Part shown: positions 13,017 to 29,953 of the stretch, in pieces
Position numbering within the stretch: position 1 is the first letter of the stretch
Layout of the letters: each line of letters starts with the position of its first letter
Origin: Chloroflexota bacterium
GTDB taxonomy: Bacteria; Chloroflexota; Limnocylindria; P2-11E
Reading direction: 5' to 3'
DNA length: 32,981 nt
Assembly: GCA_005889075.1 (NCBI GenBank)
Contig: VBDQ01000046.1
Location: forward strand, 1-32,981
Made by a program: the position numbers and the translations under genes
The notes under the pieces: generated by a model
Told to the model about the DNA's origin: nothing
The model's database searches: none
Seen by the model: the letters and a program-made list of their open reading frames with translations, nothing else

Positions 13017-14375
13017 GTGCGCGCCCTCACGCGGATCGCGGCGATCGCGATGGCCGGCGCGGGTCTCTACTTCGCGGGGATCCTCAACAGCATCATCCTC
13101 GAGCACCCCGAACGGCCGGGAGCGCCCGCAGTGGTCGTCGGCGTTGGCGCGGCGATCGGGCTCCTCGTGTACGCGCTGCGTGGGACCGGCGAAGGCGAGG
13201 CGCGCACCACGACACGGCGCCTCTGGTTCTTGCGATTGACGTGGGTGTTTGTCTGCGTCATGGGGCTCGTCGGCATCTCATGGATCCTCGGCATGCCGCG
13301 GCAGCACTCCTATGACTGGACCCCGTACCACAACGACGCGATCGCGCTGAACGAGTGCGCGGCGCGTTTGGTGCTGTCGGGACGCGATCCCTATACCGAT
13401 CTCGACCTGTTCGCCTGCTACAACCGGCTGGCGATCGGCCCCGACCGCACGACGCCGCTTCGGCGCGGCCTCTTCGCGAACGACGTGGTCTATCCCACGG
13501 ATCAGGAGATGGATGACGCCTGGGACCTTCGGTCGAACGGCGTCGGAACGAACGTCGAATTCGTGTGGCGTCCGTCCTATCCGTCGCTCTCGTTCCTTTT
13601 CCTCTTGCCGGTCGTCGCGCTCGGCATCGACACCAACTACCTCTACGTGGCCTGCCTCCTCGCCGCGATGGCGCTCGTCATCTGGCGAGCTCCGTCCGGT
13701 CTCCGACCCTTCTTCCTGACGGCGCTGCTCGGAGCGGCAAGCCTCACGGCGTTCACCGTCGGTGGAAGCTCCGACCTTCTCTATGCGCTGCCCCTCGTCG
13801 TCGCCTGGATCTGGCGCGACCGCAGGTGGGCCGCCGTCCCGCTCGGTCTGGCGATCGCGACGAAGCAGATCGCATGGTTCTTCGTGCCGTATTACGCGAT
13901 CGCGGTCGCGGCCGAACGCGGATGGCGCGCCGCGGCGCGCGATCTGATCATCGCAGCGGGGATCTTCGTGGCTGCGAATGCGCCGTTCATCGTGCACGAC
14001 CCAGCCTCGTGGGTGCTCGGGCTCATGACGCCTCTCGTCGAGCCGATGTTCCCACGCGGCGCGGGCCTCATCTTCCTATCAACGAACGGCGGAGCGCCGC
14101 TCCTGCCATCGATCGTCTACGCGGTGCTCGAGATCGCCGCGTTGGCGCTCTCGATCGTCGTTGCGTGGCGCGCCCGGCGCACCAGCCCTGAGCTCGGCGC
14201 GGTCCTGGCGGTCCTGCCGCTCTTCTTCGCCTGGCGGAGCCTTTTCTCGTATTTCTTCCTCCTACCGCTCTTAGCGCTCGCGGCGGTCTCGCGAATGCCG
14301 CTCGGCGACCCGGTCGCCGATCGCGCCAGGCGCCTCGGCGGGCTCACGATCTTCGCCGCTCCCTCGCGCACGTAG
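13017..14375 (+). CDS. polytopic membrane protein, probable GT-C fold glycosyltransferase (GT87/DUF2029-like)
   Basis: A 452 aa protein with around ten to eleven hydrophobic segments. After the second segment, a hydrophilic loop contains LSGRDPYTDLD, resembling the GxDPY motif of GT87/DUF2029 polyprenyl-phosphate mannosyltransferases. Later, LAIATKQIAWFFVPYYA resembles the conserved KQ segment of the same group. These are weak family cues; a lipid-linked sugar transferase acting on the outer face of the membrane is inferred. GTG start four bases after the mnmA stop. A short separate ORF for a small membrane protein follows at once. No signal for substrate. Confidence 0.6.
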   Translation: MRALTRIAAIAMAGAGLYFAGILNSIILEHPERPGAPAVVVGVGAAIGLLVYALRGTGEGEARTTTRRLWFLRLTWVFVCVMGLVGISWILGMPRQHSYDWTPYHNDAIALNECAARLVLSGRDPYTDLDLFACYNRLAIGPDRTTPLRRGLFANDVVYPTDQEMDDAWDLRSNGVGTNVEFVWRPSYPSLSFLFLLPVVALGIDTNYLYVACLLAAMALVIWRAPSGLRPFFLTALLGAASLTAFTVGGSSDLLYALPLVVAWIWRDRRWAAVPLGLAIATKQIAWFFVPYYAIAVAAERGWRAAARDLIIAAGIFVAANAPFIVHDPASWVLGLMTPLVEPMFPRGAGLIFLSTNGGAPLLPSIVYAVLEIAALALSIVVAWRARRTSPELGAVLAVLPLFFAWRSLFSYFFLLPLLALAAVSRMPLGDPVADRARRLGGLTIFAAPSRT

Positions 14376-14993: not shown

Positions 14994-15003
14994 TTTGCAG
15001 GGG

Positions 15004-15042
15004 AACGCGGGGAGCCGAGGTCGGCGACCCGCGTTTTCGTTT
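15004..15042 (+). terminator. terminator-like hairpin in the alaS leader (possible attenuator)
   Basis: AACGCGGG (15004-15011) pairs perfectly with CCCGCGTT (15028-15035). Inside are opposed GA/GA bases and a GCCG/CGGC stem with an AGGT loop. A T-rich stretch TTTTCGTTT follows. This is the layout of an intrinsic terminator. It lies between a promoter-like box and alaS, so it may either end upstream transcription or act as an attenuator in the leader. No specifier loop or T-box sequence was found. Confidence 0.5.
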
Positions 15043-15050
15043 AGGCGAGT

Positions 15051-15078
15051 GGGGCTAAAGCCCCCAAGCCCCCGGAGG
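15051..15078. repeat. GC-tract hairpin repeat (copy 2), directly before the alaS ribosome site
   Basis: GGGGC-TAAA-GCCCC forms a small tetraloop hairpin, followed by CAAGCCCCCGGAGG. The end of the repeat supplies the Shine-Dalgarno sequence. The efp copy at 25550 has the same order: G-tract, short loop, C-tract, A(A)GCCCCCG, purine ribosome site, start codon. Confidence 0.6.
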
Positions 15079-15081
15079 AGG
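15076..15081 (+). promoter_or_regulatory. ribosome binding site AGGAGG that decides the alaS start
   Basis: A perfect AGGAGG sits six bases before an ATA codon at 15088. That is ideal spacing for initiation at 15088 and poor for any ATG, GTG or TTG nearby: the upstream GTG at 15050 lies before it, and the next downstream TTG is within the conserved catalytic domain. Confidence 0.55.
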
Positions 15082-15087
15082 GCCGAA

Positions 15088-17754
15088 ATAGACAGCGCGA
15101 CGATCCGCGAGCGGTTCATCACCTTTTTCGAGGAGAAGGGCCATCACTTGCTGCCCTCCGCCCCGCTTGTCCTGAAGGACGATCCCTCGGTCTTTTTCAC
15201 GAGCGCCGGCATGCAGCCGCTCGTTCCCTACTTCCTCGGGAAGAAGCAGCCGCCGTCCAAACGGATCGTCACCATCCAGAAGGTCTTCCGTACGTCGGAT
15301 ATCGACGAGGTCGGCAACGACAGCTGGCATCAGACCTTCTGGGAGATGCTCGGCAACTTCGGCATCGGCGATTACTGGAAGAAAGATGCGATCAGCTGGG
15401 GCTGGGAGCTCCTCACCGACCGGTTCGGCTTCGATCCGGCGAAGCTCGTCGCGACGGTCTACAAGACGGACGACGAGGCGTTCGACATCTGGACGAAGGA
15501 GCTGCGGCTCCTTCCTGCGGAGAAGGTCTACCGCTTGGGAGACCTCGAGAAGGGCGACGAGACGAACTTCTGGTCGCCTGGACCGACCGGGCTGTGCGGA
15601 CCCTGCAGCGAGGTGTTCGTCGATCGCGGTCCGCAGCCCGGTGTGCGCGAGCACGACTGCTCGCCTGCGGAGAACTGCGGACGATGGATCGAGATCTGGA
15701 ATTTCGTCTTCCAGCAGTACGACCGCCAGCCCGACGGCACCCTGACCCCGCTCCCAAAGAAGAACATCGACACCGGCGTCGGCCTCGAGCGGCTCGCTCT
15801 GGTTCTTCAGGGTGTGATCCCCGACAGCTTCAAGACCGATCTGTTCTTGCCGTACATCAAGAAGGTTGAGGCGCTCTCTGGCAAGCGCTACGGAGCTGAT
15901 AAGGCGACCGACCGCTCCATGCGGATCGTCGTCGAGCACGGGCGTTCGGCGACGTTCCTCATCGCCGACGGGATCCAGCCCTCGAACGAGTGGCGTGGCT
16001 ACGTCCTGCGGCGCCTCATCCGGCGCGCCTCCATGCACGCGCGGCGTCTCGGCCTGCGGACCGGCATCCTGGCCGCGCTCGGCACCGAGGTCGTCAAGCA
16101 CATGCAACAGCACTACCCCGAGCTCACGCGGGCGCGCGACCGTATCCCCCAGATCCTCGGCGACGAGGAGGCGAAGTTCGAGCGAACGCTCGAGAACGGG
16201 CTCGAGCAGCTCACCGCGGCCATCGAAAGCGCGAAGGGCGCTGGCTACGCGCGGATCGATGGGGACACCGCGTTCCGGCTCTTCGACACGTTCGGGTTCC
16301 CACTCGAGATGACCCGAGAGATCGCCGCCGCGTCGGGTCTGACCGTCGACGAGGCTGGGTACCGCCGGCTCCTGGAGGCCCAGCGCAGCCGTTCCCGGGC
16401 GAGCGCGAAGTTCAGCCAGGACGTGATGCGCTTCGGCCAGCTCTACTCATCGCTGAAAGAGCGCGAAGGGCTCCACACCGAGTTCAGCGGCTATGACGAG
16501 CTGGTCTCCGAGGCGCGGATCATCTCGCTCATCGTGGGCGGCGAGCGGGTCGAACAGGCGAAGGAGGGCGACGACGTCGAGATCGTGCTCGATCGCACAC
16601 CCTTCTATCCCGAGGGTGGCGGCCAGGTCGGCGACCGCGGCGACGTCACAACGGATCAGGGCCGGGCGATGGTCGCGGACACGCAGACCGCGGCGCCGGG
16701 CGTGATCGTGATGAGCGCGAAGGTCGTCGACGGCGTGCTGCGCAGCGGCGCGCGCGCGACGGCGAGCGTCGATCCCGAGCTACGCCGCGATACGATGCGC
16801 AACCACACCGCGACGCACCTGCTGCATGCGACGCTGCGGCGGATGTTCGGCGAGGACGTTCATCAGGCGGGGTCGCTCGTCCACGCGCCGAATCTGCGCT
16901 TCGACTTCACCTTCAATCGAGGCCTGACGGCAGAGGAGATCCAGAAGGTCGAGGACGAGGTCAACACCGCGATCCTCGAGAACGCCGACGTCCACGCGCG
17001 CGTCATGCCGCTCGACGAGGCGCTCGCGTCCGGCGCGGTGGCGCTCTTCGGCGAGAAGTACGAGGACGTCGTCCGCGTCGTGGAGGCGGGTCCGTCGCGC
17101 GAGCTCTGCGGCGGGACGCACTGCCACTGCACCGGTGACATCGGGATCTTCCTCATCACCAAAGAGGAATCAATCGGGGCGGGCGTGCGGCGGATCGAAG
17201 CCGTCACCGGGGTCGGTGCGCTCCGCGAGATCCACGAGATCCGCGACCGCGTCGCACGCGCGGCGGCGGCGCTGCGTGTCGCGCCCTCGCGCCTGCCCGA
17301 AGCGGTCGCACAGCTCCAGGCGTCGCGCGAACGGCTCGAGAAGGAGATCGGGTCGCTCCAGCGGAGCGGCGTGGAGTCGATCGCGACGTCGCTGCTCGCG
17401 AAGGCCGAGCTGCTCGGACCGGCCAAGGTCGTCGCGGCCAACGTCGGTGACGCCGACCTCGGCCAGCTGAAAAAGCTCGCGGACCGTCTGCGTGAAGGGA
17501 TCGGCAGCGGCGTGGTGATCCTGGGCGGCGCCAAGGACGGCCAGGCGGCGATCTTCGTCGCGGTGACGAAGGACCTCGCGCCGCGGGTCGACGCGGACGC
17601 GGTGATCAAGCTGGTAGGGCCGATCATCGATGGCAAAGGCGGCGGTCGGCAGGAGAGCGCTTCGGCGGGCGGTAAGGCGCCTGCGCGTCTGGCGGAAGCG
17701 GTCGAGGCGGCGCGGACGGCGGTCCACGAGCGTTTGAACGGCAGACGTGGCTAG
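15088..17754 (+). CDS. alaS: alanyl-tRNA synthetase, apparent ATA start
   Basis: Charges tRNA-Ala and clears mischarged Ser/Gly. In order: class II core (IRERFITFFEEKGHHLLPSAPL, FTSAGMQPLVPYF, FRTSDIDEVGND), an insert with GLCGPCSEVFVDRG and clustered cysteines, tRNA-recognition helices, the editing domain with HTATHLLH near residue 572 and CGGTH near 673, and the C-terminal DHHA1 domain with GGGRQESASAGG. 888 aa from 15088 is the normal length. The track starts at 14995, but those residues come from the leader and repeat. A GTG at 15050 is the conventional alternative (about 901 aa) yet has no ribosome site. The editing loop reads CGGTHCHCTGD, with two extra cysteines. Confidence 0.93.
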   Translation: MDSATIRERFITFFEEKGHHLLPSAPLVLKDDPSVFFTSAGMQPLVPYFLGKKQPPSKRIVTIQKVFRTSDIDEVGNDSWHQTFWEMLGNFGIGDYWKKDAISWGWELLTDRFGFDPAKLVATVYKTDDEAFDIWTKELRLLPAEKVYRLGDLEKGDETNFWSPGPTGLCGPCSEVFVDRGPQPGVREHDCSPAENCGRWIEIWNFVFQQYDRQPDGTLTPLPKKNIDTGVGLERLALVLQGVIPDSFKTDLFLPYIKKVEALSGKRYGADKATDRSMRIVVEHGRSATFLIADGIQPSNEWRGYVLRRLIRRASMHARRLGLRTGILAALGTEVVKHMQQHYPELTRARDRIPQILGDEEAKFERTLENGLEQLTAAIESAKGAGYARIDGDTAFRLFDTFGFPLEMTREIAAASGLTVDEAGYRRLLEAQRSRSRASAKFSQDVMRFGQLYSSLKEREGLHTEFSGYDELVSEARIISLIVGGERVEQAKEGDDVEIVLDRTPFYPEGGGQVGDRGDVTTDQGRAMVADTQTAAPGVIVMSAKVVDGVLRSGARATASVDPELRRDTMRNHTATHLLHATLRRMFGEDVHQAGSLVHAPNLRFDFTFNRGLTAEEIQKVEDEVNTAILENADVHARVMPLDEALASGAVALFGEKYEDVVRVVEAGPSRELCGGTHCHCTGDIGIFLITKEESIGAGVRRIEAVTGVGALREIHEIRDRVARAAAALRVAPSRLPEAVAQLQASRERLEKEIGSLQRSGVESIATSLLAKAELLGPAKVVAANVGDADLGQLKKLADRLREGIGSGVVILGGAKDGQAAIFVAVTKDLAPRVDADAVIKLVGPIIDGKGGGRQESASAGGKAPARLAEAVEAARTAVHERLNGRRG

Positions 17755-18811
17755 AGACCGGTCGCGCGAGGCTCCCGGCGGACCGCGCGTGAGCGGCATC
17801 GAGCTCGCGGCCGGATCCGCGCGTGCGGTCGTGGCCCGGATCGAAGCCGGCCACCTGCGCGTGCTGGCTCGAGGTGAGGCCGGGCTCGCGCCGGACGCGA
17901 TCGTCGGCGGGCTGGTCGTCGATCGGCCCGGGGTGAGCGCGTCGTTGGCGGCCGCTCTTGGCGTCGCCGAGCGCGGCGTCCCCACCGAGCGAACGGTCGT
18001 CGCGATCGACGGCGACGACGTCCGCACGTATCACCTGACCACGCCGTTCGAGCGTGAGGAGTCGACGACGCCGATCGTCCGTGCCGAGGTCGACCAAGCG
18101 CTCCGCGAGGCCCGCAACGAAGCCGCGCGTCGAGCCCAAGCGGAGGTCGAAGACGATCCAGCGCTCCGTGGCGTCGCTACCGCGCGGCTTTCCGACGACG
18201 TCGCGGGAGTGGTGCTTGACGGCCGACCGCTGGAGTCGCTCGTCGGGTATCACGGCAGATCTCTCGAGGTGCACACCGACGTCTCCGTGGCGCCGCTCGT
18301 GCTCTCGGGTGCGGCTCTCGCCACGGTCGCCTCACCACGCCGCCGCGCGACCGCGGTACCCGGCATCTACGCCATCGCGCGTCTCGTGGCTGAATCGGGG
18401 ATCGCGGATGCCGGGATCGTGCGACTGGGCGCGGACACGACCGCGCTCGCGCTCGTGCGCGAGCGGCGCGTCGTCGGCACGCGCGTGTTCGGGCTCGGCC
18501 GCGACGCGTTCGCGCTGCGCGAACAGACCCGCGACGCTGACGCTCGGATATGGGCCGAATGCGTGGCCCTTCCGCTTGCGCCGCGTGACGGACCACTGCC
18601 CGAACGATGGCTGTTCCTGGGCGTGCCAGAGACCCTGACCGCCCTTCCGAACGCACTCGCCGTGATCCTCGAAGAAGCGCGAGGCGGCGCGGCGCGGATC
18701 GGTCCGCTGTCGCCGGCGATCCTCAGCCGCGTCTTCTCGGATGTCGCGGTGCACGGAGACGACCTCGTCGCGGTCGGGGCGGCGGCGATCGCCGCGGAGC
18801 TCTACGGGTGA
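17747..18811 (+). CDS. actin-like ATPase of the FtsA/PilM family (divergent)
   Basis: A 354 aa protein without membrane segments. The order of features fits the FtsA/PilM actin fold: GIELAAGSARAVVAR near residue 17 as phosphate-1 loop, an SHS2/1C-like region with VVAIDGDDVRTYHL and an acidic helical stretch, VRLGADTTALALV as phosphate-2 loop, and FLGVPETLTALPNAL as the adenosine-side loop. Similarity is at motif level only; catalytic residues are degenerate. GTG 17747 overlaps the end of alaS by eight bases; GTG 17789 just before GIEL is an alternative. Its stop overlaps the start of a membrane-anchored baseplate-J-like gene as GTGA, suggesting a cytoplasmic partner for that envelope protein, as PilM is for PilN. 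Confidence 0.62.
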   Translation: MARDRSREAPGGPRVSGIELAAGSARAVVARIEAGHLRVLARGEAGLAPDAIVGGLVVDRPGVSASLAAALGVAERGVPTERTVVAIDGDDVRTYHLTTPFEREESTTPIVRAEVDQALREARNEAARRAQAEVEDDPALRGVATARLSDDVAGVVLDGRPLESLVGYHGRSLEVHTDVSVAPLVLSGAALATVASPRRRATAVPGIYAIARLVAESGIADAGIVRLGADTTALALVRERRVVGTRVFGLGRDAFALREQTRDADARIWAECVALPLAPRDGPLPERWLFLGVPETLTALPNALAVILEEARGGAARIGPLSPAILSRVFSDVAVHGDDLVAVGAAAIAAELYG

Positions 18812-20155
18812 CGGTCATGGCCACGACGAACCGACGCGCGGTCATCGATCTCGGTGCCGACGCGACCATCCTCGACGCGGCCGCGCGACTCGACGCGACG
18901 AACAGCGGACAGGATGTCGCGCTGGTCGTACCGACCGGCGCCCCCATCGCGCGCAATGCCGTCTTCCTCGACGTCCTCCGCCGCCGCGCAGCCGACCGGC
19001 GGCTCGCGCTCGTTTCCTCCGATGCCCGCGCGCGTTCGCTCGCCGCGTCGGTGCACGTCCCGGCCTTCGCGAGCCTGGCGGCCCTCGAGCGTCACGAGCT
19101 GGACGCGACCGAGCATCTGGGCGACGCGCGGCGTGCCGCACTCGCGACCATCGCCGCCGTCGGCGCCCACAGGACGGGCTCGGCGCGCCGGGGCGCGGCG
19201 GTGGTTGCGAGCCTCATCGTCGCCGCCGCGGTCCTCGCCGCGGTCGTCGCTCCGTCGGCGACGGTCATCGTCGCGCCCGCGGCGACGACGATCGGTCCAT
19301 ACGAATACGACCTGACGGCAGGACCCCGCGGTGACATCAACGACGCGCTGACCCAGGGGCCGTCGACCCTTTCGAAGACATTCGCGTCACCCGCGACGGG
19401 CTCCAAGATCGTGGACGTAAAGGCGACGGGCGTCGAGAAGTTCACGAATCTCACCACGAACGACATCCGGATCGCGAAGGGCACGGTCGTATCGACGCCT
19501 GACGGCATCCGCTTCCAGACGACCGAGGACAACGGGTGGCGACTCCAAGACCGTCGCTGTCGTGATGCAGGGCGACTACGACAAGGCGGTGGGCGCGGCC
19601 GACGATGCGCTGCGGACCGAGGCGAACGCGACGCTGCTCAAGCGCTGGCAGCAGGACGCGCCGAAGGGGCGGACGGTATATGGAACATACATCCAACGCA
19701 CCAGCATCACCCCGGCCTCCGACGTCGTCGGAAAGACGCTCGATTTCGGAACGACATTCGATCTGACCGCGACCGGCACCGCGGTCGGGTACAGCGTGCC
19801 GTCGACCGAGCCGCGGCAGACGGCGCTCAAGAACCTCGCCGGTAACGCGTCGCCCGGAAACCAGATCTCCACCGGTGACGCGGCAAAGCTCGAGGCCGTC
19901 ACGGGTCCGACCGTCGACGCGAACGGCGTCCACTGGCGCGTCCGCGTCTCTTCCATCCAGTACGCGCGGACGGCGCTCCTGACCTCCGCGATCGCGGGCC
20001 GGAGCTTCGACGACGCGAAGCGGATCGCCGAGGAGCGCGGCTTCAAGGTCGTCCAGATCGTCGCCACTCCCGGGTGGCTGCCGCGGATGCCGCTCCTCGA
20101 TTCGCGGATCGCGATCACGATCGGGGAGCCGACGATAACCGCAAGTGGTTCCTGA
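18808..20155 (+). pseudogene. membrane-anchored baseplate-J-like protein, interrupted by a single +1 frameshift
   Basis: Two track ORFs (18607-19845 and 19562-20155) are halves of one gene. The N-terminal ~120 residues form a soluble alpha/beta domain (VIDLGADATILDAAARLDA; ALVVPTGAPIARNAVFL); a transmembrane helix follows near residues 133-155; then a beta-rich region begins with ATVIVAPAATTIGP and VEKFTNLTTNDIRIAKGTVV, typical of bacterial baseplate-J-like proteins. At 19534-19536 a GGG run has one extra base: removing it joins FQTTEDNG to GDSKTVAVVMQGDYDKAV and gives about 448 aa with no other defect. GTG 18808 overlaps the actin-like stop; ATG 18817 is an alternative. The break may be a sequencing error. 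Function unknown; probably envelope-located. Confidence 0.66.
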
Positions 20156-20158
20156 TCG

Positions 20159-20539
20159 TTGCGCTATCTCGCTCTCGACGTCGGTGATCGCCGCATCGGC
20201 CTCGCGGTCGGCGACGAAGCGCACGGGCTGGTGCGACCCCTGCGGACGCTCGTGCGTCGCAGCGTCGCCAAGGATCTGGACGCCCTCGGCGCGATCGCGC
20301 GAGAGGAGGACGTGGGAGCACTGGTGATCGGCCTTCCGTTGACTCTCGGAGGCGACGAGGCGTTCCAGGCGCGCCGGGTTCGGCGGTTCGCCGAGTCGGC
20401 GAGCAGCCTCGGCCTTCCAGTCGAGCTCTATGACGAGCGTCATACCTCGACCGAAGCGGCCCTCCGGGGCGCGACCGATCTCGACAGTGGAGCGGCGACC
20501 GTCCTTCTCGAAGACTTCCTGGCGCAGCGCGCTCGCTGA
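20159..20539 (+). CDS. ruvX: RuvX/YqgF family Holliday-junction resolvase-like nuclease
   Basis: RNase H-fold protein; family members act in Holliday-junction resolution and 16S rRNA 5' end processing. Motifs: YLALDVGDRRIGLAVGDE with the first catalytic aspartate, VIGLPLTLGGDE, YDERHTSTEAAL and LDSGAATVLLEDFL with the last acidic residue. At 126 aa it is about ten residues shorter than E. coli RuvX; the loss falls in the variable loop after DERHTSTEA. TTG 20159 is the likely start because MRYLALDVG is the family N-terminus; no Shine-Dalgarno is evident. The stop overlaps the mltG ATG as TGATG. Confidence 0.88.
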   Translation: MRYLALDVGDRRIGLAVGDEAHGLVRPLRTLVRRSVAKDLDALGAIAREEDVGALVIGLPLTLGGDEAFQARRVRRFAESASSLGLPVELYDERHTSTEAALRGATDLDSGAATVLLEDFLAQRAR

Positions 20540-21597
20540 TGCCGCCGCGGGCACCCGCGCACCGTCCACCCCGAGCGCGCTCCACGACAGGTCCGCTCGT
20601 ATTCATCCTGGTGGTGATCCTGGCGATCGTCGCGGTCGTCGCGCTCGGGCGTCCCATCGCGGAGGACGCGCTCGTCGCGCAGGTCGAGCAGCACGACACC
20701 CTCCTCAAGCAATCGGTCGTCCGCGACATCGTCGCGGCGCGCGTCGGTGCGGAAGCCGATCTCGCGAAGGATGCGAATGCGGAGCCCCGCTCGTTCGTCA
20801 TCTCCCGCGGAGAAGCGATCGGAAGCATCGCGCGGCGCCTGGTGTCAGAGGGGTTCATCCGCTCTGCCCTCGCCTTCACCTACGTGCTCTATGACACGGG
20901 GCGAGAGGACTCGCTGCAGTCCGGTGCGTACACGATCTCCGCCGGCCTCACTCCCCGCGAGCTCTCGCAAGTCTTCGAAAAGGCGCCGGGCGAGCAGACG
21001 GTGCTCCGGATCATCGACGGCTGGCGGCTCTCCCAAGTTGCGACAGCGGTCAATAAGGCGTTCCCCAAGATCAGCGAGGACGACTTTCTGAAGACGGCGG
21101 TCGTCGGGGACCGGCGCAATACCGTCCTCTCCGGTCTCGGGCCGGATCAGTCACTCGAGGGCTTTCTCTTCCCGGACACCTATTTCTTCAAGCCCACCGC
21201 CACGCCCGGCACCATTGTCGACACGCTCCTCGACCAATTCGAGCAGCGCGCCGGCCAGACCCTCCGGCAGGCCGCCGTCGAAAACAAGACGACGATCTAC
21301 GACATCGTCAAGCTCGCCTCGATCGTGGAGCGGGAAGCGCGCGACCGGGTCGGCCAGTGGCGTGAGCTCACGCTGGCCGATCTCGAGATGGACTCGCCGT
21401 ACAACACCTACAAGGTCGCGGGCCTTCCGCCGACGCCGATCTGCAACGCCGGCCAGGCGGCGCTCGCCGCCGCGGCGAAGCCTGCGGATGTCCCGTACCT
21501 GTTCTTCGTCGCGAAGAACGACGGCACGGGCGATCACGCGTTCGCGAAGACGATCGAGGAGCAAGAAGCGAACCGGGCCAAGTACGGAAACAAGTGA
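20539..21597 (+). CDS. mltG: endolytic murein transglycosylase MltG-like, with a ~30-residue deletion in the catalytic domain
   Basis: Membrane-anchored peptidoglycan transglycosylase that sets glycan strand length. One transmembrane helix near residues 20-37, a LysM-like domain (FVISRGEAIGSIARRLVSEGFI), then the YceG catalytic domain. LASIVEREA carries the catalytic glutamate equivalent to E. coli Glu218. Immediately afterwards the conserved block with VFxNRL and LQxDPT is missing: only about 13 residues separate IVERE from ADLE, against about 44 in E. coli. The reading frame is intact and resumes with LTLADLEMDSPYNTY and GLPPTPI. The protein is therefore probably inactive, unless the deletion is a consensus error. 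GTGA overlap with aroE. Confidence 0.8.
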   Translation: MPPRAPAHRPPRARSTTGPLVFILVVILAIVAVVALGRPIAEDALVAQVEQHDTLLKQSVVRDIVAARVGAEADLAKDANAEPRSFVISRGEAIGSIARRLVSEGFIRSALAFTYVLYDTGREDSLQSGAYTISAGLTPRELSQVFEKAPGEQTVLRIIDGWRLSQVATAVNKAFPKISEDDFLKTAVVGDRRNTVLSGLGPDQSLEGFLFPDTYFFKPTATPGTIVDTLLDQFEQRAGQTLRQAAVENKTTIYDIVKLASIVEREARDRVGQWRELTLADLEMDSPYNTYKVAGLPPTPICNAGQAALAAAAKPADVPYLFFVAKNDGTGDHAFAKTIEEQEANRAKYGNK

Positions 21598-28262: not shown

Positions 28263-28271
28263 CCGTTGTGG

Positions 28272-29144
28272 CTAGGCGGGCGCGGCCTCGCCTTCGCGGA
28301 TCTTGCGCAGGAACGGCTCCAGGTTCTCGATGAACTGCTCGGGACGGAAGCCGTGAATCAGATGGCCGCTCCCGGGAAACCGCTTGATCGTGACATCGGC
28401 AAGCTTCTTGAGCCTCCACTCCGACGCGTCGTCCAGCGCTCCGCCGAGACGCGGTTCGCCGGCGAGGACGAGGACGGGTGCTCGCACTCTCGCTATGGCG
28501 TCGGCGATGATCGCGGCGGTAGGGTCGTCTCCGGAAACGCGCGCGTCGATGAACGCCGGGTCGACATCGCGAAAATAGGTCAGAACCCGCTCGCTCGCGT
28601 AGAAGCCGCGAAGCTCGCCGTACGTTCGCTCGCCGCGCGGTCCTGGCGAGGGGAGCGGCTGCTTCGCGGTCGCCTTCGCGATGGTCACCGGGTCGGCGCT
28701 GGCGACCGCTTCGCGGAGCGTCCCGTAGCGCGAGGGGTCCCAGGCCCGCGCGTAGCCCAGCGCGGGGTCCTCGAGGACGGCTCCGCGAACGAGCTCCGGC
28801 GCCTCCGCCGCCGAGACGAGCGCCGAGAGCGCGCCCAGCGAGTGACCGATGAGCACGGCCGGTGCTTTGACCACCTCATGCAGGACGCGGAGCGCGTCGT
28901 CCGCGAACGAGCGAAGGGTGTAGTCAGACGCCCGCGCGCTCTTGCCATGGCCGCGCGCGTCGTAGGCGACCACGCGGTAACGCGTCGCGAGGCGCGGGAA
29001 GATGTTCTCCCAATCCTCGGAGCGCGCGAGACTCGAGTGGGACAGGACGATGGCGGGCTCCGAGCCGACGGTCGTACCGGCGTCGTAGTACACGAGCTTC
29101 GGATCGCCCTTGAGGGTGCGTGCGCGCGGAAGACGCTTCGGCAT
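28272..29144 (-). CDS. alpha/beta hydrolase fold protein
   Basis: 290 aa soluble protein. Oxyanion region [13 protein letters not shown], conserved [12 protein letters not shown], nucleophile elbow GHSLGAL with the catalytic serine, an acidic candidate after VLVLAGEP, and the catalytic histidine in [15 protein letters not shown] lid region lies between about residues 135 and 200. Esterase or haloperoxidase-like activity is possible, but the substrate is unknown. ATG 29144 is followed directly by a basic MPKRLPRAR. Divergent from tlyA by 32 bases. The 429 aa antisense ORF covering it is a shadow of GC-rich codons. Confidence 0.86.
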
Positions 29145-29164
29145 CGCAGCGAGTATGGGGATGC

Positions 29165-29170
29165 GAGAAT
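29165..29170 (+). promoter_or_regulatory. possible -10 box GAGAAT before tlyA
   Basis: GAGAAT lies six bases before the GTG start at 29177 within a 32-base divergent gap. The similar CAGAAT lies eight bases before the pyrimidine phosphorylase ATG. No -35 match is evident; the call rests on position and recurrence. Confidence 0.22.
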
Positions 29171-29176
29171 CCGGCC

Positions 29177-29953
29177 GTGCCGAAGCGGGTGCGCCTCGAC
29201 CAGCTGCTCGTGCAGCGCGAGCTCGCTCCGAGCCGCGAGCGCGCCCAGGCGCTCATCCTGGCCGGCGCCGTCCGCGTGGATGGCGACCGCGCCGATCGCG
29301 CTGCCGCTCCGGTCGCGGAGGATGCCGAGCTCGTCGTCGAACGAGGCAAGGCGTACGTCTCTCGGGGCGGCGAAAAGCTCGCGGGAGCGCTGGATGCGTT
29401 CGGGCTGGACGTTCACGGGCGTGTGGCCATCGATCTGGGATCGTCGACCGGTGGTTTCACCGACGTGCTGCTCCAGCGCGGTGCATCGCGCGTGCACGCC
29501 ATCGACGTCGGCAGGGGACAGCTCGACTGGCGTCTCCGCAACGATCCGCGCGTGATGGTCCACGAAGGGATCAACGCCCGCGAAGGCATACCGGTCGACG
29601 AACCTGTCGACCTGATCGTGGCCGATGTGTCATTCATCTCGCTCCGTTTGGTCCTTCCGCCCGCGCTCGAGCGGCTCGAGCCGGACGGTGATCTGATCGC
29701 CCTCGTGAAGCCGCAGTTCGAGGCAGGCCGATCCGCCGTCGGCAAGGGCGGCATCGTTCGGGACACGGCGGCGCGAGCCGACGCCGTCGTCGCCGTCGCG
29801 CGAGACCTTGCGGGGCGCGGCGTGCCCGTGGTGGCGGTCGCGCCATCGGTCATCCTCGGCCGTGAGGGCAACCGCGAGATCTTCGTGCACGCGCGGCGTG
29901 GCGCGCGCGAGGTCGACCGGCTCGAAGATGCCGCGCGCGAGGCCGCCAGCTGA
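29177..29953 (+). CDS. tlyA: TlyA family 16S/23S rRNA cytidine 2'-O-methyltransferase
   Basis: S4 RNA-binding domain at the N-terminus ([32 protein letters not shown]) followed by an FtsJ/RrmJ-like methyltransferase: [14 protein letters not shown] loop [39 protein letters not shown] and a late [10 protein letters not shown], which together supply the K-D-K-E type residues. 258 aa is normal. TlyA modifies 16S and 23S rRNA cytidines in known actinobacterial cases. GTG 29177 is chosen over the track start (29120), which lies in the hydrolase gene. Confidence 0.92.

Follow-up and report, generated by a model that had tools for sequence, protein, structure and literature searches.

An FtsA-related protein and its baseplate-J-like neighbour as a possible cell-wall complex of Chloroflexota

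What might an actin-like protein and an adjoining, presumably membrane-anchored protein do together in a block of housekeeping genes? This question is raised by two genes, here called P1 and P2, on a stretch of 32,981 nucleotides (the window) from a draft metagenome assembly of a Chloroflexota bacterium (144 contigs, 87% complete). The original prediction saw in them an actin-like ATPase coupled to an envelope protein, by analogy with PilM and its membrane partner PilN. A complex of this inside-to-envelope kind is plausible by that analogy, and FtsA–FtsN provides an equally good analogue. Deciding what such a complex could be for requires a look at the family, the state and the distribution of both proteins.

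The layout of the locus is as predicted (Table 1). The pair is flanked by alaS on one side and by ruvX–mltG on the other and is thus beside a wall hydrolase, mltG encoding the lytic transglycosylase YceG/MltG (PF02618), and aroE is found further downstream. The stop codon of P1 and the GTG start of P2 at 18808 share the tetranucleotide GTGA (18808–18811). With alaS, ruvX and mltG as neighbours, the claim that pilus genes are absent from the vicinity also holds. Within the class, the block order is alaS-P1-P2-ruvX-mltG, alaS being located upstream of P1 in those relatives whose contig extends that far. Elsewhere in the window, the membrane protein encoded at 13017–14372 resembles glycosyltransferase family GT87, though below threshold (E 1.7e-4); a 429-aa ORF at 28266–29552 has no Pfam hit at E 0.001 and is possibly a non-coding frame.

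Table 1. Positions of the P1–P2 locus in the window
Feature	Position	Strand	Remarks
alaS, upstream neighbour	14995..17754	+	ORF; 8-nt overlap with P1 start
P1 (354 aa), actin-fold relative of FtsA; nucleotide motifs not recognisable in the window's order	17747..18811	+	ORF from GTG 17747 to TGA 18811
Remnant of phosphate-1 motif	17786..17833	+	RVSGIELAAGSARAVV vs ALDIGTEFAKALV in class relatives (alignments)
Remnant of phosphate-2 motif	18410..18457	+	AGIVRLGADTTALALV vs FVDIGGGTTDVALV in class relatives (alignments)
Remnant of adenosine motif	18605..18637	+	RWLFLGVPETL vs RIYLCGGGSRL in class relatives (alignments)
P2 5′ part, frame 1: N-domain, TM helix, ectodomain start	18808..19530	+	72% identity to L031/L102 P2
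P2 cytoplasmic alpha/beta N-domain (predicted)	18835..19089	+	model of L102 residues 10–94
P2 TM helix (predicted)	19195..19251	+	mean Kyte-Doolittle 2.77 over 19 residues; helix 126–146 in L102 model
Junction of ~158-bp deletion and frameshift	19531..19534	+	alignment to intact L102; phase switch
P2 3′ part, frame 2: remaining ectodomain	19535..20155	+	64% identity to L031/L102
ruvX	20159..20539	+	PF03652 E 5e-28
mltG/yceG	20539..21597	+	PF02618 E 4e-58

The window's P1 has nothing above cut-off in Pfam or NCBIfam and no match to TIGR01174 (ftsA). Its fold is nevertheless readily recognised: an AlphaFold model built from an alignment of 22 family members reached a mean pLDDT of 86.9 and a pTM of 0.87, and its top Foldseek matches were FtsA (7q6f, E 4e-18) and PilM (5eou, E 1.5e-17), with TM-scores of 0.65–0.68 against FtsA structures. 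The actin fold proposed for 17747–18811, and with it the description as a divergent FtsA/PilM-type protein, is hence borne out by structure prediction.

Kinship with PilM itself did not survive closer inspection. Syntenic orthologues from two class relatives match TIGR01174 with E 1e-31 to 1e-34 (109–118 bits, under the equivalog cut-off of 175.85 bits), as against 27–32 bits for the pilM profile, and P1 stays below the PilM cut-offs of both PF11104 and TIGR01175. In a tree that also included 13 sequences of canonical FtsA and 3 of MreB, P1 forms one clade apart from canonical FtsA (support 100/98, 99% of bootstrap trees), within which the position of long-branched rows is unsure. Canonical FtsA is carried by 375 of 400 Chloroflexota genomes and lies 5–9 kb from murG in several of them (e.g. 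G101, G212 and G056), while P1 is found between alaS and ruvX instead. The source genome, too, encodes a separate canonical FtsA (G000:C5:866-1975, L125; 405 bits) with an amphipathic C-terminus. Given the bit scores, the separate clade beside Chloroflexota FtsA and the failure to find PilM or PilN in relatives, P1 is, on sequence grounds, placed in a family of FtsA paralogues and not with PilM.

The label 'ATPase' has to be dropped for the window's order. Class-relative P1 keeps the nucleotide motifs D[IV]GTEFAK, DIGGGTTDVALV and CGGG in alignments and ends in an amphipathic helix as in FtsA (muH 0.63–0.70). Throughout the order to which the window belongs (families f1 and f2), the phosphate 1, phosphate 2 and adenosine motifs are all absent from P1, subdomain 2B is shorter by ~30 residues in the alignment and the C-terminal amphipathic helix is lost, the tail of the window's protein having a muH of 0.09. 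Comparable erosion is seen in three other lineages, partly in L082 and L097 and fully in L090. Yet the degenerate protein does not look like a gene in decay: its length and many invariant residues are retained in 21 relatives, the 4-nt overlap with P2 is mostly kept, and dN/dS of the window's P1 is 0.17–0.22 in comparisons with four congeners and 0.38 with L112, which is more distant. By these measures of sequence evolution, the motif-less P1 of this order is under purifying selection.

P2 is best described from its intact orthologues, which measure ~500 aa in the window's family. Their predicted topology comprises a cytoplasmic alpha/beta N-domain, for which no significant profile match was found in Pfam or among PDB sequences, one TM helix and a baseplate-J-like ectodomain. 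Intact relatives pass the PF04865 (baseplate J) cut-off of 21.1 bits (e.g. L031 with 29.8 bits), and 16 of 20 aligned P2 rows match this family at E <= 1. The ectodomain core also matches the PHROG 6 baseplate wedge and, by fold, phage baseplates: in a fold search, the L102 core aligned with baseplate J of phiCD508 over 102 columns at 2.5 A and 29% identity. Since the domain orientation of the multi-domain model is uncertain (pTM 0.51), which accounts for the low whole-model TM-scores of 0.16–0.18, the baseplate-J likeness is claimed for the core only. The C-terminal half of P2 evolves faster (dN/dS 0.31–0.70), and a PASTA-like match at the C-terminus is weak and below cut-off (E 0.005).

Several variations on this theme deserve mention. 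P2 ectodomains from two loci match the GlxA beta-barrel domain PF21110 below cut-off (L050:7182-9011, E 4e-4; L044:7722-9491, E 0.024), and the fold search with L102 P2 likewise returned GlxA and a GlxA homologue. In family f21, P2 measures ~900 aa and has an extended low-complexity region separating the N-domain from the TM helix (e.g. L093:7346-10024), and many genomes of this family contain three P2-profile matches each; P2 at L099:7926-9410 apparently has no N-domain and begins in low-complexity sequence. Outside the phylum, P2 may resemble proteins of Patescibacteria.

The layout originally described for P2 thus stands for the family; what does not stand is its assignment to one continuous frame in the window. 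Position-specific G+C shows that coding leaves frame 1 for frame 2 around 19531–19535, where, compared with intact L102, a deletion takes ~158 bp of the baseplate-J core; in L031, 162 nt occupy this spot, as opposed to 4 in the window. Programmed frameshifting was rejected as the cause, as ~158 bp are missing rather than one or two bases. A real, recent mutation that left the strain without P2 is conceivable, though the less probable explanation when set against an assembly error. The loss is a clean, single piece, and the missing part was not found elsewhere in the assembly, in which the P2 profile matches just the two halves. However, the assembly is the fragmented and incomplete draft described above, P2 was matched in all ten of the other sampled genomes of the genus, and each half evolves like the corresponding part of P2 in intact relatives, the downstream half showing no sign of decay with a dN/dS of 0.31 against L102, the low end of the range for all pairs.

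Conservation of the pair as neighbours, which the original prediction required, turned out to extend far beyond the genus. A search of 41 genomes with the 5′ part of P2 gave matches in 34, the source genome being one of them, and a profile search detected the P2 family in 288 of the 400 Chloroflexota genomes and intact P1 in 115. Every one of these 115 also carries P2 (83 expected); the two genes are adjacent in 70/70 same-contig cases, with 6 further cases on separate contigs. Across much of the phylum P2 is linked to ruvX and/or mltG. In several families P1 was not seen beside P2, which still adjoins ruvX or mltG in most loci, and some lineages have no P1 between alaS and P2. Because many lineages keep P2 without an adjoining P1, P2 does not need it.

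P2 also tracks the peptidoglycan gene murG: 278 genomes have both P2 and MurG, 10 P2 only, 67 MurG only and 45 neither (Fisher p 2e-19). Like those for P1, these counts ignore shared ancestry, and a few clade-level losses could yield the association. The ten genomes with P2 only are mostly incomplete, the source genome among them. Among the 45 genomes with neither are complete chromosomes of family f12, which we take to be peptidoglycan-less Dehalococcoidia because an S-layer-like wall has been described there (PMC10608941).

Taken together, P1 and P2, an FtsA paralogue and a bitopic protein, may well form a complex at the membrane that belongs to the cell-wall machinery; by analogy with the known systems, we give this reading a probability of about 0.5. 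It is supported by the P1 fold, the domain layout, paralogy, motif loss, selection, conserved adjacency and the joint occurrence of P2 and murG. FtsN and PilN are single-pass proteins whose cytoplasmic tail docks in the IA–IC cleft of FtsA and PilM, respectively (PMC7613929). As P1 shares this fold and is encoded next to a single-pass protein that is inherited along with it, we infer a similar physical interaction, in which P1 would sit on P2 from inside like FtsA on FtsN or PilM on PilN. P2 would cross the membrane once, with its N-domain in the cytoplasm and its baseplate-J-like ectodomain reaching the wall zone, where it might oligomerise via this ectodomain. Ancestral P1 would bind ATP, touch the membrane with its own amphipathic helix and perhaps form filaments; in the window's order, P1 probably serves as an adaptor that needs no nucleotide and that P2 keeps at the membrane.

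A role in wall synthesis is indicated by the MurG association and the mltG neighbour. The linkage of alaS, ruvX and mltG is old in Gram-positive-related bacteria, so gene position alone is no proof of wall function, and the 67 MurG-positive genomes without detectable P2 speak against the wall reading. It is tempting, if rather doubtful, to go further and consider the pair a third wall-directing actin system of Chloroflexota besides FtsA and MreB, in which the FtsA paralogue would work with a bitopic, baseplate-like and possibly ring-forming partner and, in one order or more, would have turned into a pseudo-actin adaptor that works without nucleotide.

Three other readings of the pair rank lower. 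That P2 works alone in the wall or envelope, P1 being an ancestral accessory in the course of loss and a decaying remnant in the window's order, would explain why P2 occurs in so many more genomes than intact P1 and why several lineages have a degenerate P1 or none between alaS and P2. We consider it unlikely, since decay fits poorly with the selection on P1 evident from its retained length and invariant residues, its dN/dS against congeners and the overlap with P2. Still somewhat harder to credit is that P1 and P2 are the PilM–PilN-like platform of a type IV-pilus-type machine (a pilus, Tad or archaellum-like system) encoded away from its other genes. PilM structures do match the P1 model almost as well as FtsA does, PilM (5eox, E 1e-6) is the top match among solved structures for a profile restricted to degenerate P1, and four T2SSE-type assembly-ATPase matches lie on other contigs of the source genome (G000:C2, C43 and C89). 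Some pilus or secretion machine is hence likely to be encoded elsewhere in that genome. However, intact P1 is nearer to FtsA by its bit scores, searches for a PilN domain in 41 relatives and for TIGR01175 PilM in 121 genomes (E 1e-40) found none, the pair adjoins no pilus gene, and P2 combines a baseplate-J-like ectodomain with its MurG association. The lack of PilN, PilM and a pilus operon places this role below the wall reading even though assembly ATPases exist in the genome.

Baseplate-J similarity to phage structures could also mean that P2 is a domesticated part of a phage tail or contractile injection system, the pair being what remains of it. This is very improbable: the likeness is confined to the ectodomain, sheath, tube and spike genes were not seen in the neighbourhoods examined, the block lacks other tail genes, P2 has no PADLOC match, and phylum-wide synteny fits such a remnant poorly. 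A function in anti-phage defence was rejected as well, neither P2 nor the window's P1 having a PADLOC match; class P1 gave a single weak actin-core match (E 0.001).

Actin-fold proteins that act via a single-pass partner are already known from division (FtsA–FtsN) and pili (PilM–PilN). No description of the P1–P2 pair was found in the literature searched, and the pair is apparently an undescribed, conserved variant of such actin-plus-bitopic-partner systems. Should the wall role prove true, it adds a component to the wall machinery of a phylum with poorly known wall biology, and the Chloroflexota pair suggests a neglected link between cell interior and wall. Moreover, Chloroflexota offer a graded set of loci, some with a P1 that keeps its ATP motifs, some with a P1 that has lost them yet is under selection and some with P2 alone, so that the dependence of actin-like adaptors on nucleotide can be tested directly.

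How, then, does the pair compare with known systems? P1 shares with FtsA the FtsA-type actin layout and, in class relatives, the amphipathic C-terminal helix, and its neighbour P2 is predicted to be bitopic, just as FtsN is the bitopic partner of FtsA. It differs in forming a separate clade beside the canonical FtsA of the same genomes, below the equivalog cut-off, in the location of its gene outside the division and wall cluster and, in the window's order, in the absence of nucleotide motifs, a full subdomain 2B and the membrane helix; P2 differs from FtsN by its baseplate-J ectodomain. With PilM–PilN, the pair has in common the actin subfamily fold and a bitopic partner, PilN docking into PilM from inside. 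Yet P1 scores below the PilM cut-offs of Pfam and NCBIfam, neither a PilN domain nor a pilus operon is present, and P2, at ~500 aa, has a cytoplasmic alpha/beta domain of its own. Finally, phage baseplate J/gp47 (PF04865, PHROG 6) resembles the core of the P2 ectodomain, from which P2 departs by its predicted membrane anchor, its cytoplasmic domain and its place in a housekeeping block without tail genes.
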